Source of the DNA: an uncultured Ruminococcus sp.
GTDB lineage: Bacteria; Bacillota; Clostridia; Oscillospirales; Ruminococcaceae
Length of the DNA stretch: 64,000 bases
Assembly: GCA_947566125.1 (NCBI GenBank)
Contig: CANOIR010000001.1
Coordinates: 1 to 64,000, forward strand
Reading direction: 5' to 3'
Position numbers and translations under genes: made by a program. The notes beneath the pieces were generated by a model. The model was not told the DNA's origin, did not search any database, and saw nothing but the letters and a program-made list of their open reading frames with translations. Of this stretch, positions 40,464 to 45,776 are shown one piece after another. The first letter of the stretch is position 1, and every line of letters starts with the position of its first letter.

Positions 40464-40760
40464 TGAGTAAATGCTATGATGAGAAGTAGTAAATGTGGCT
40501 CTAATGTTCAGAGAGAAAACGTTTGGTGAAAGTTTTTCATTATCCATATTGAAGTAGTCTTGGAGCACTGTAAGTGAAGTTTTGATAAGTAATTTAAGTA
40601 TTATTTATATGTGTAGCTTATGGCGGTAATCTCCCGTTATAGAGATGTGCTTATAATTTAGCACATGAGTGCAGGCTTTTATCAGCTTGAATTCAGGTGG
40701 TACCACGGACAAACTGTTCGCCCTGAGCTTTTTCTTTATTGAAAAATCTCAGTTTTTTTG
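40464..40760 (+). ncRNA. T-box riboswitch, valine specific
   Basis: A T-box leader of about 300 nt. Stem I shows the AG-rich element (TGAGAAGTAGTAAAT) and the distal CAGAGAG / GTTTGGTGAAAG loops. The specifier loop reads GAAGTAGTCTTGGAGCAC with candidate codon GTA at 40554-40556, a Val codon matching the downstream gene. The T-box itself is TTCAGGTGGTACCACGG (about 40693-40709). The terminator is CTGAG..TTTTTC (40723-40734) with GAAAAATCTCAG (40741-40752) and seven T. Uncharged tRNA-Val would favour the antiterminator and raise valS expression. Confidence 0.94.
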
Positions 40761-40793: not shown

Positions 40794-43415
40794 ATGAGAA
40801 AAGAACTGGCAAAGGCTTATCAACCAAAAGAGTTTGAAGACCGTATATATGCCCTATGGAATGAAAAGGAATGCTTTAAAGCTGTTCCAGATTCAAAGAA
40901 AAAGCCATATACAATAGTTATTCCTCCACCCAATATAACAGGTCAGCTGCATATGGGTCACGCACTTGATGAAACACTTCAGGATATACTTATTCGTTGG
41001 AAAAGAATGTCCGGATATTGTACATTATGGCTTCCTGGTACAGACCATGCAGCTATTGCAACAGAAGCAAAAATTGTTGCAGCCATGCGTGAAGAAGGTA
41101 TTACAAAAGAAGACCTTGGCAGAGAAGGCTTTATGAAACGTGCATGGGAATGGAAAAAACAATATGGCGGAAGAATTGTTGAACAGCTGAAAAAACTTGG
41201 TTCTTCATGTGATTGGTCAAGAGAAAGATTTACAATGGACGAAGGCTGTTCAAAGGCAGTAAAAGAAGTTTTCATTAAATACTATGAAAAAGGTTTGATC
41301 TATAGAGGCGAAAGAATCATAAACTGGTGTCCAAAATGTAAAACATCACTTTCTGATGCTGAAGTAAATTATGAAGATCAAGCAGGTCATTTCTGGCACC
41401 TCAGATATAAAATCAAAGATTCTGATGGTTATCTTGAACTGGCCACAACACGTCCGGAAACACTTCTCGGCGATACAGCTGTTGCAGTTAACCCTGATGA
41501 TGAACGTTATAAGAACTTGATAGGAAAGACTGTTATCCTGCCTATAGTTCATCGAGAGATCCCGATAGTTGCTGACAATTACGTTGAAATGGATTTCGGT
41601 ACAGGTGTTGTTAAAATCACACCGGCCCATGACCCTAATGACTTTGAAGTAGGTCTTCGTCATAATCTACCTGTTATAAATGTTATGACTGAAGATGCCA
41701 AAATTACAGATGATTATCCCAAATATGCAGGCATGGATAGATATGAAGCAAGAAAAGTGATCGTTGCTGATTTGAAAGCTGAAGGTGCACTTGTAAAGGT
41801 TGAGGATTATAATCACAATGTTGGTACTTGCTACAGATGCGGAACTACAGTTGAACCAAGGGTTTCTACGCAGTGGTTTGTAAAAATGAAGCCTCTTGCA
41901 CAGCCGGCTATAGATGCAGTAAAAAATGGAGATACAAAGTTTGTACCTGAACGTTTTGACAAGATTTATTTCCACTGGCTGGAAAATATTCGTGATTGGT
42001 GTATTTCAAGACAGATCTGGTGGGGACATCAAATACCTGCATTTTATTGCGATGATTGCGGCGAAATGGTTGTTACAAAAGAAAATAGTGCTGTTTGTCC
42101 TAAATGTGGTAAGCCTATGCGTCAGGATCCTGATACACTTGATACATGGTTCAGTTCTGCATTGTGGCCGTTTTCAACACTTGGCTGGCCTGATAAAACA
42201 GAAGACTTAGACTATTTTTATCCTACAAACACCTTAGTTACAGGTTATGATATTATCTTTTTCTGGGTTATCAGAATGATGTTCAGTGGTCTTGAAAATA
42301 TGGGCAAGGTTCCTTTCAATACTGTTCTTATTCATGGTTTGGTACGTGACTCACAGGGAAGAAAAATGTCAAAATCTCTTGGAAACGGTATAGATCCACT
42401 TGAAATTATAGATGAATATGGTGCAGATGCACTGAGATTTATGCTTGCTACAGGCAACTCTCCAGGAAATGACATGAGATATATTGACGATAAAGTAAAG
42501 GCTGCAAGAAACTTTGCTAATAAGCTTTGGAATGCTTCAAGATTCATCATGATGAATTTACCTGATGATTTTAAGTTTACAGGTTTACCGTCTGATTTAC
42601 GTATAGAGGATAAGTGGATCATATCTAAATTTAATGATCTTACAAAAGAAGTAGTTGAAAACCTTGATAAATATGAAATCGGTATTGCAAGTGCAAAGAT
42701 TTATGATTTTATTTGGGATGTATTTTGCGACTGGTACATTGAACTTACAAAGCCAAGAATCATTGCAGGTGGTCAATCTATGGCTGATGCACAGGCTGTT
42801 CTTGTTTGGGTAATGCGTGGAATGCTTAAGCTTTTGCATCCGTTTATGCCATATATTACAGAAGAAATCTGGCAAGTTCTTACTGATGGAGAATCCATGA
42901 TAATTCTTGAAAATTATCCTGTATATGATGAAAAATATAACTATTCTGAAAGTGCTGATCAGTTTGAAAAGGTTATAGCAGCTATTAAGGCTGTAAGAAA
43001 CTGCCGTACAGAAATGAATGTTCCACCGTCAAGAAAGGCTAAGATCTTCATTGAAACAAATGAAGGAGATTTGTATAAATCAGCTGCAATATTCTTTGAG
43101 AAATTAGCGTCTGCGTCTGAAGTTGAAGTTGGAACAATATTTGATGTTTCTGATGCGGTTATGGCTGTAACAGATACTGCTCGTCTTTTCATTCCTATGG
43201 ATGAGCTTATTGATAAAGATAAAGAAATTGCACGTCTTAATAAAGAAAAAGAAAAGGTACAGAAGGACATTGACTTTTTAAGCAAAAAATTGTCTAATCA
43301 AGGATTTATTGCTAAAGCACCTAAGCAGCTTGTTGAAGCTGAACAGGCTAAACTTGATAAGGCTAATGAAAAAATGACTAAGCTTAATCAATCTATTGAA
43401 AGTATGATGGCTTGA
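40794..43415 (+). CDS. valS: Valyl-tRNA synthetase
   Basis: 873 residues, normal for bacterial ValRS. PPPNITGQLHMGHALDETLQ carries the HIGH motif (HMGH, near 47-50), TTRPETLLGDTAVAVNP the editing domain, EPRVSTQWFVKM and ISRQIWWGHQIPA flank the catalytic core, and GRKMSKSLGNGIDP is the KMSKS loop. A C-terminal coiled coil (DKEIARLNKEKEKVQKDIDF, about 805 onward) binds tRNA-Val. It charges tRNA-Val with valine and edits Thr. AAGGAG precedes the ATG. Control is by the T-box. folC follows by 52 nt. Confidence 0.98.
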   Translation: MRKELAKAYQPKEFEDRIYALWNEKECFKAVPDSKKKPYTIVIPPPNITGQLHMGHALDETLQDILIRWKRMSGYCTLWLPGTDHAAIATEAKIVAAMREEGITKEDLGREGFMKRAWEWKKQYGGRIVEQLKKLGSSCDWSRERFTMDEGCSKAVKEVFIKYYEKGLIYRGERIINWCPKCKTSLSDAEVNYEDQAGHFWHLRYKIKDSDGYLELATTRPETLLGDTAVAVNPDDERYKNLIGKTVILPIVHREIPIVADNYVEMDFGTGVVKITPAHDPNDFEVGLRHNLPVINVMTEDAKITDDYPKYAGMDRYEARKVIVADLKAEGALVKVEDYNHNVGTCYRCGTTVEPRVSTQWFVKMKPLAQPAIDAVKNGDTKFVPERFDKIYFHWLENIRDWCISRQIWWGHQIPAFYCDDCGEMVVTKENSAVCPKCGKPMRQDPDTLDTWFSSALWPFSTLGWPDKTEDLDYFYPTNTLVTGYDIIFFWVIRMMFSGLENMGKVPFNTVLIHGLVRDSQGRKMSKSLGNGIDPLEIIDEYGADALRFMLATGNSPGNDMRYIDDKVKAARNFANKLWNASRFIMMNLPDDFKFTGLPSDLRIEDKWIISKFNDLTKEVVENLDKYEIGIASAKIYDFIWDVFCDWYIELTKPRIIAGGQSMADAQAVLVWVMRGMLKLLHPFMPYITEEIWQVLTDGESMIILENYPVYDEKYNYSESADQFEKVIAAIKAVRNCRTEMNVPPSRKAKIFIETNEGDLYKSAAIFFEKLASASEVEVGTIFDVSDAVMAVTDTARLFIPMDELIDKDKEIARLNKEKEKVQKDIDFLSKKLSNQGFIAKAPKQLVEAEQAKLDKANEKMTKLNQSIESMMA

Positions 43416-44733: not shown

Positions 44734-44758
44734 TACAATTTAAGTAATATATAATTTA

Positions 44759-44796
44759 AAGCTGCCGCATCACACAGACACGGCAGCTTATATTTT
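44759..44796. terminator. Terminator of valS-folC, possibly bidirectional
   Basis: AAGCTGCCG (44759-44767) pairs with CGGCAGCTT (44781-44789). TATATTTTAA follows on the plus strand and TTTAAATTAT on the minus strand, where it could end read-through from the noncoding locus. Confidence 0.85.
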
Positions 44797-45059
44797 AATA
44801 TTAAATTTTACTTAAGTTTAATTTGAAAGAACTTTCATTCTTTCGCATGAATTTCGATGGGACTCACTCCTTATTCTTATGGATTAAACATTACAAAAGC
44901 ATTTTTTATTTTCATAACAATCACATCTTTTTAAATTAAATATAATGCAACATTTAGGTATATTAAGCCATTGGAATCACCATTTTTTATAAAAATTATA
45001 TAAATTAAGAATAAACTTCAAAAACAAATTTCAATATTAAAGCGTGTTTTACTTAAATC
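44797..45059. other. AT-rich stretch without a gene
   Basis: No coding frame or conserved RNA is evident. On the minus strand a small hairpin GAAAGAA / TTCTTTC lies near 44825-44844. The segment GATTCCAATGGC near 44965-44976 faintly resembles the repeated core of the adjacent RNA locus. Both are weak. Confidence 0.5.
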
Positions 45060-45084
45060 ATTAAAATTGGTTTTTCAACCGGTG

Positions 45085-45258
45085 CGAATTTATTACTTAT
45101 AAATGGTACTCACTACAATTCAGTAGTCCTCACTCATTAACTCTCGCTAATCGTATACTCATCTAACCAAAATAACAACCACGCTATTCACTTTATTTGC
45201 CATTGGATTTTACCATCCTTTTTGTTATCATTCAGCATTTATTTAAAGGCATTTAGCC
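45085..45258 (-). repeat. Domain B of the tandem structured RNA
   Basis: Downstream copy: GGC-TAAAT-GCC hairpin (45258-45248), GGAT..ATCC hairpin (45218-45205), ATGGCAAATAAAG from 45203, CGATTAGCGA, then GG-ACTAC-TGAATT-GTAGT-GAGTA-CC (45129-45105) and a final AGTAATAAATTCG ending at 45085. From ATGG to TTCG it is 119 nt, the same as domain A. Confidence 0.65.
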
Positions 45259-45363
45259 GAAAATTCAGAGTCGTCATCACTCTAAATTACGTTCACCTAT
45301 GCTGTCTATGACATAACATTTAAATTCATACAGTTACATCTGCTAAATCAGCTAACGTCAATA

Positions 45364-45534
45364 CGAAATAAATTACTACAATGGGGTATGCTGTTTGTTT
45401 CAACAGCCCTTACGCTCCGCTCTTCGTCACCAATCGCTTACTGACCCAGACAGCATATGTACTGTGATTCTTCATTTGCCATCGGATCTCAACCTCCTTG
45501 CCGACCTTCATCATTTCACAAAAGACCAAGTCTT
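45364..45534 (-). repeat. Domain A of the tandem structured RNA
   Basis: Upstream copy: AAGAC-TTG-GTCTT hairpin (45534-45522), GGA..TCC hairpin (45497-45484), ATGGCAAATGAAG from 45482, CGATTGGTGA, then GG-GCTGTT-GAAACA-AACAGC-ATA-CC (45409-45385) and AGTAATTTATTTCG ending at 45364. From ATGG to TTCG it is 119 nt. Confidence 0.65.
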
Positions 45535-45609
45535 AAACCTTGTAAAATACATCGCTGAAAGATTTCTTTGTGATTACCTTACTTTGTATCACTCTCTTTC
45601 CTTGATTAT

Positions 45610-45638
45610 ATAATACCATAGTTTCTGAACATTGTCAA
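45610..45638 (-). promoter_or_regulatory. Strong promoter of the noncoding RNA locus
   Basis: Read on the minus strand: TTGACA (45633-45638), exactly 17 nt, then TATTAT (45610-45615) preceded by an extended TGG. Nothing downstream encodes a protein. Confidence 0.85.
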
Positions 45639-45776
45639 GAGCTTTTATTAAAAATGCACTAAAAATATTGATTTATTAGATTTGTAAAGTAAACTTACGC
45701 ATCCTCTTAATATTTCAAAAGTAATATATCAAAACAACGCAATTAAAACTAAACTTCACTTTGATTTATTAACTAT

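Follow-up and report, generated by a model that had tools for sequence, protein, structure and literature searches.

A family-wide RNA gene of Ruminococcus with serial micro-ORFs, very probably a new RNA class and possibly a docking site for ribosomes

The window that we analyzed is a 64,000-nucleotide stretch of DNA from an uncultured Ruminococcus. On its minus strand, positions 45638-44756 hold an RNA gene: a near-perfect promoter is followed by about 850 nt of folded RNA and by what is probably a terminator. An earlier note on this DNA had pointed to this promoter, which we confirmed, and to about 545 nt without a credible ORF after it, which is too short: the transcription unit seems to run for about 850 nt, to about 44756. 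The features that define the gene are:

45610..45638, minus strand: promoter TTGACA-17-TATTAT with an extended TG before the -10 element, 11 of 12 matches to the consensus; the same promoter heads the homologues
44756..45603, minus strand: predicted transcript of about 850 nt, from the promoter to a terminator-like hairpin; homology runs along it
44825..44844, minus strand: hairpin GAAAGAATGAAAGTTCTTTC, retained across the genus
44756..44787, minus strand: terminator-like hairpin GCTGCCG..CGGCAGC, then TTTAAATT (judged by eye)

A terminator scan did not call the window's 3' hairpin, owing to its short T tract. The homologues have comparable hairpins at their 3' ends, several with longer T tracts. 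We found no conserved gene downstream of the RNA, and its flanks vary among the species of the genus. Because the RNA comes with a promoter of its own and precedes no conserved gene, we read it as an autonomous gene. We rejected a cis-regulatory leader or attenuator, as no downstream gene on the same strand is conserved and the window's RNA has the terminator-like hairpin and a convergent folC after it. We also rejected a functional link to the neighboring PASTA kinase, since this neighborhood is kept in only part of the genus; a genome scan with the kinase protein as the query gave no match. We found no second copy in the same genome, where the only candidate was a promoter-like match (at C59) ahead of an ordinary gene. 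(Elsewhere in the window, an ordinary T-box leader, RF00230 with 123 bits, lies at 40467-40728 on the plus strand, upstream of a valyl-tRNA-synthetase-like gene at 40794-43415.)

The earlier note had proposed blastn as a check for relatives, and these exist. Among 99 related genomes, blastn found matches in 12 of the 16 genomes from the genus (the window's own included). They include several Ruminococcus MAGs and the named type strain Ruminococcus callidus ATCC 27760, in which the RNA is amenable to testing. With blastn, a covariance model, and the start-motif pattern AAAGGTGAGTCCNATG, we found RNAs with this architecture in 14 or more additional genera of the family (for genomes without a species name, the search tool supplied the genus and family labels). 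The loci outside the genus, which we read individually, are L033, L034, L055-L057, L063, L066, L069-L077, L109, and L112. In many of these other genera, the RNA is divergent from a DUF1292 gene (PF06949) that has 6S RNA on its other side; in the window's genome, the DUF1292 gene sits on a separate contig. At L034, L055, L070-L074, L076, and L077, 6S RNA lies beyond the DUF1292 gene, with this small gene of unassigned function between the two RNA genes.

We rejected several other groups of matches. Those to the motif in other families of the order or class (L080-L082 and L096) are isolated and lie in coding or unrelated sequence. Model matches L058-L062, L064, and L065, as well as L036 and L037, have neither the promoter nor the motif series, and we took them to be chance or coding sequence; L104-L107 are coding sequence with one short word in common. 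We found no authentic copy in the other families that we searched. As far as searched, this RNA gene family appears to be confined to one bacterial family.

The RNA very probably represents a new class, as the earlier note had thought possible: it is absent from Rfam 15 and has covarying homologues. Rfam 15 gave no match at or above the gathering cutoff to the window's RNA (only chance-level matches at E ≤ 10 for the isolated region) and none to 14 homologous loci except for the neighboring 6S genes. The note had likened it to ROOL, OLE, and GOLLD and also named HEARO and raiA as models to search; none of these covariance models in Rfam 15 matches. Like ROOL, GOLLD, and OLE, this RNA is structured, stand-alone, and 500-900 nt long, and it comes from Firmicutes; unlike them, it is chromosomal, family-restricted, and without an Rfam match, it carries a series of start motifs and micro-ORFs, and its 5' domain is not conserved between genera. 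It is not 6S RNA (RF00013), which is the separate gene beyond DUF1292, nor tmRNA, as ARAGORN finds none in the window and Rfam has no match. In the open-access literature that we searched, we found no description of such an RNA. Even without a mechanism, it would be a new family-wide RNA gene, which annotation probably misses, given the shortness of its ORFs and the absence of an Rfam model.

The earlier note had envisaged a large RNA with internal pseudo-symmetry, built from two blocks (copies A and B) with an offset of 279 nt. There is a large structured minus-strand RNA with covarying helices, and the duplication is real, but it is not general. The symmetry reflects the duplication of one hairpin-plus-start-site module in one Ruminococcus sub-clade: copy B is present in the window, L022, L024, and L025 and not in L027-L032. 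The repeat (45470-45499 and 45191-45220) is 30 nt long and 80% identical. A covariance model (R1) of copy A, based on 12 homologues, detects the window's copy B with 29.9 bits (E = 1.6e-4 in a whole-genome search and 1.8e-5 in another search), so the repeat is more than chance. Two features belong to copy B:

45184..45260, minus strand: copy B, the hairpin-plus-start module recovered by R1; overlaps hairpin P5 and the Shine-Dalgarno site of ORF2 (45205-45221)
45105..45129, minus strand: last hairpin of copy B, ACUAC/GUAGU, as read off the sequence; positional equivalents in L022-L025 differ

The element that defines both blocks, GGA..TCC-ATGGCAAAT, is in fact a start site for translation. At the core of the architecture stands not the duplication but a series of micro-ORFs and AUG-less Shine-Dalgarno motifs. 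A purely noncoding locus, as in the earlier note, is not supported, nor is the region without a credible ORF: the transcript bears short ORFs with strong Shine-Dalgarno sites. In the Ruminococcus RNA, these ribosome-start signals open only peptides of two to about twenty amino acids:

45484..45499, minus strand: Shine-Dalgarno site of ORF1, AAGGAGGTTGAGATCC, conserved across the genus
45438..45482, minus strand: ORF1, MANEESQYICCLGQ and stop; the first ORF, retained in other genera and acidic at its N-terminus
45159..45203, minus strand: ORF2 of copy B, MANKVNSVVVILVR and stop; positional counterpart of MAGITPQNFSHLDWNCTR (and stop) and of similar ORFs in L022-L025
44963..44971, minus strand: two-codon minigene ATG-GCT-TAA, with start motif GGTGATTCCA at 44972-44986
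44877..44915, minus strand: ORF-K, MKIKNAFVMFNP and stop; its stop is 6 nt ahead of a start-less motif, as in several genera
44860..44870, minus strand: start-less motif GGAGTGAGTCC, then CATCGAAA

Across 32 homologous transcripts, 99 AUGs have a Shine-Dalgarno core ahead of them at normal spacing. Of these, 38 open an ORF of exactly two codons (AUG-NNN-stop), as compared to 25 of 458 AUGs without a Shine-Dalgarno core in the same transcripts (Fisher 3e-16, with the caveat that related loci are not independent and that statistics across loci ignore phylogeny, except for genus-level counts). At the genus level, one or more such two-codon ORFs occur in 11 of the 12 genera scored. The 38 in-frame stops at +6 compare to 7 and 8 in the neighboring two frames. 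The second codon is unconstrained (A, K, V, Y, N, I, R, T, E, or C).

The 3' part of the RNA consists of two kinds of repeated unit. One is A-rich-GGUGAGUCC-N-AUG, a few codons, and a stop. The other is ORF-K, its stop, 6-7 nt, and GGAGUGAGUCC without AUG. ORF-K has about 8-16 codons and is basic and hydrophobic (for example MKINVVFRLFNP, MKMNVMRLLNI, and MKMIVRMRLEIT). Its stop is typically 6-7 nt 5' of GGAGUGAGUCC, and most such GGAGUGAGUCC have no start codon (27-28 cases of the start-less motif). Short ORFs often end close to a randomly chosen position (401 of 1740), so the argument for ORF-K rests on this fixed distance and not on presence alone. In many genera, the start-less motifs have a common 3' extension, NCC(A/G)GAAA. 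Successive motifs cluster at spacings of 48-60 nt and 112-140 nt, and their number varies, up to about eight start motifs per RNA. At L034, L063, and L110, the unit of ORF-K and start-less GGAGUGAGUCC is duplicated, which suggests that the 3' part expands in whole modules.

Our preferred reading, which we hold tentatively, is that this is a multivalent RNA that docks or decoys ribosomes. Ribosomes (30S or 70S) would load at the GGUGANUCC-N-AUG start motifs. With an immediate stop codon, they would terminate or drop off near the initiation site, stay near the Shine-Dalgarno sequence, and travel too little to unfold the RNA. On its folded scaffold, one transcript could then hold several ribosomes, or a factor that recognizes this initiation-like motif, and the RNA would sequester, store, or count them. 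Occupancy and the fold would matter and the peptides would not. In favor of docking, we count the excess of two-codon ORFs, the normal spacing of the Shine-Dalgarno cores from their AUGs, the multiplication of whole units at the two spacings, and the autonomy of the gene. The recurrence of the motif without a start codon also fits docking rather than coding. As precedents, single minigenes work by ribosome occupancy (PMC8708949), and GOLLD binds ribosomes in pull-downs (PMC12286853).

A weak point of docking is the UCC in the start motif, which a Shine-Dalgarno interaction does not need. UCC is present at 70 of the 99 Shine-Dalgarno-preceded starts in the form GGUGAGUCC-N-AUG, but at none of 41 ordinary gene starts that have these cores (the controls are from long ORFs, with starts picked by a simple rule). 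At -4 to -2, UCC sits where pairing with the 16S tail during initiation is unlikely. The predicted pairing to the 16S tail averages -12.6 kcal/mol for motif starts and -11.4 kcal/mol for ordinary starts, which is just slightly stronger, and we rejected extended pairing as the reason for UCC. We also sought an intramolecular partner for the motif and found none.

This poor explanation of UCC by 16S rRNA keeps alive the idea of a sponge, in which GGUGAGUCC/GGAGUGAGUCC is a putative site for an RNA-binding protein that is titrated, much as CsrB and RsmZ titrate CsrA. The 3' extension of the start-less copies and the variable copy number would also fit. As in CsrB, RsmY, and RsmZ, many Shine-Dalgarno-like motifs, variable in number, lie on one stand-alone RNA; unlike in those RNAs, start and stop codons follow the motif and GGA is not required. 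CsrA itself is rejected as a general target: its family (PF02599) is present in 3 of the 12 RNA-bearing genomes, and it is absent from the window's genome and from two others of the genus. With no candidate protein, and with the excess of two-codon ORFs left unexplained by a protein site, we think a sponge is unlikely.

A second point against pure docking, which needs no coding constraint, is the moderately codon-like pattern of substitutions in ORF1 and ORF-K. Changes by codon position are 9/8/23 for ORF1 of genus g6 and 26/15/38 for ORF-K, which is an excess at third positions. This could mean that one or both peptides are active, as in a dual-function RNA or a peptide operon, and ORF-K is short, basic and hydrophobic, and at a fixed place in several genera. 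RNAIII is likewise a folded RNA with at least one short ORF, but our RNA has no family match and has up to about eight start motifs, many of which open just two codons. In most ORFs there are just two codons and the second residue is free to vary, which does not suggest a peptide product, and no export signal is evident by eye. The first ORF has 13-29 codons across genera, with an acidic start in many, but within Ruminococcus its nucleotides are kept across a change of frame (QYICC vs. QLHML), so RNA-level constraint is present there too. We consider a peptide product to be quite improbable.

We then turn to the fold of the 5' domain. In a plain MAFFT alignment of this domain from 11 species, nine helices are supported, with 93.1% of cells paired. 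Across these helices, 27 pairs have double changes, with 93 double-change cells as compared to 39 in shuffles, and none of 500 shuffles reached the covariation score. Slid controls were 41-47% paired, a comparison that favors the structure because it was derived from the same alignment. The AAGAC/GUCUU and GGC/GCC hairpins, which the earlier note saw as keeping their pairing, both covary in the homologues. The compensatory changes that it saw in the GCUGUU/AACAGC hairpin are borne out as well, as all five pairs are double-changed.

45509..45550, minus strand: hairpin P2, the first of copy A; covarying, 7 pairs with double changes over two helices
45449..45459, minus strand: 5' strand of P3, CATATGCTGTC, within ORF1; partner at 45296-45306; most pairs invariant in 11 species
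45296..45306, minus strand: 3' strand of P3, GACAGCATAGG, the partner of the 5' strand
45390..45408, minus strand: P7, the GCUGUU/AACAGC hairpin of copy A; 5 of 5 pairs double-changed, 78% of cells paired
45325..45367, minus strand: domain of helix P6; 7 pairs, of which 2 are double-changed; pairing in 88% of cells
45262..45288, minus strand: hairpin P4; 9 pairs, 100% paired, 7 with double changes; the clearest helix
45248..45258, minus strand: hairpin P5, GGC/GCC; 3 pairs, 100% paired, one double change (GC/AU)
45229..45240, minus strand: alternative partner (ATGCTG) of the 3' strand of P3; invariant in 11 species and preferred in single-sequence folding

This strong covariation would suit the view that the function lies in the folded 5' domain and that the minigenes only hold ribosomes as a shield against nucleases. 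A six-codon minigene with a strong Shine-Dalgarno site (LEE4) does shield the espADB mRNA from RNase E, and the two-codon minigenes axe-txe mg2 and EHEC LEE1 act in cis (PMC8708949). All three share with our RNA a Shine-Dalgarno site, an AUG, and a near-immediate stop. They are single, lie in an mRNA leader or body, and affect a neighboring gene in cis, whereas the minigenes of the Ruminococcus RNA are in series with no gene after them. Against this view, conservation between genera is lowest in the 5' domain (of which there is little in L034 and L069-L077), whereas the start motifs are retained. Protection in cis as the sole role of the minigenes is improbable.

The long-range helix P3, in which CAUAUGCUGUC (inside ORF1) pairs with GACAGCAUA, rests on conservation more than covariation, as most of its pairs are invariant. 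Since ORF1 contains its 5' strand, and an alternative, equally invariant partner (AUGCUG) exists for its 3' strand, translation of ORF1 would be expected to shift the balance between the two pairings. Similarly, a ribosome terminating at ORF-K, 6-7 nt from the start-less motif, would cover that motif. Through such changes of fold by ribosomes on either ORF, the RNA might report on the supply of ribosomes or tRNA. But P3 and its alternative are recognized only in the genus, and there is no downstream gene to control, so we regard such a translation-sensing switch as very unlikely.

Returning to docking, a fuller version is possible but rather doubtful: a new class of bacterial RNA on whose serial two-codon ORFs several ribosomes would load with no protein being made, a "pseudo-polysome" that would store, count, or sequester ribosomes or a GGUGAGUCC-recognizing factor, possibly with a phage-borne relative. 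If the docking reading is true, then a conserved RNA of common gut bacteria uses start-stop minigenes in series, for which we found no description in the open-access literature. It would also be a natural system for asking how ribosomes behave on AUG-NNN-stop sites and whether bacteria titrate or store them by means of RNA.

As for phage, a scan of viral contigs for the minigene motif turned up four IMG/VR contigs (L100-L103). On each, a gene that looks like a tail gene is followed by a stretch of about 330 nt that resembles an RNA gene (L100:480-870, minus strand; also in L101, L102, and L103). The stretch has no match in Rfam or in an annotated phage collection. It could be homologous to the Ruminococcus RNA or could share the initiation module alone. 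Its promoter is of the same style, its 5' end carries an SD-AUG-UAC/UAU-UAA minigene, and its terminator is strong.
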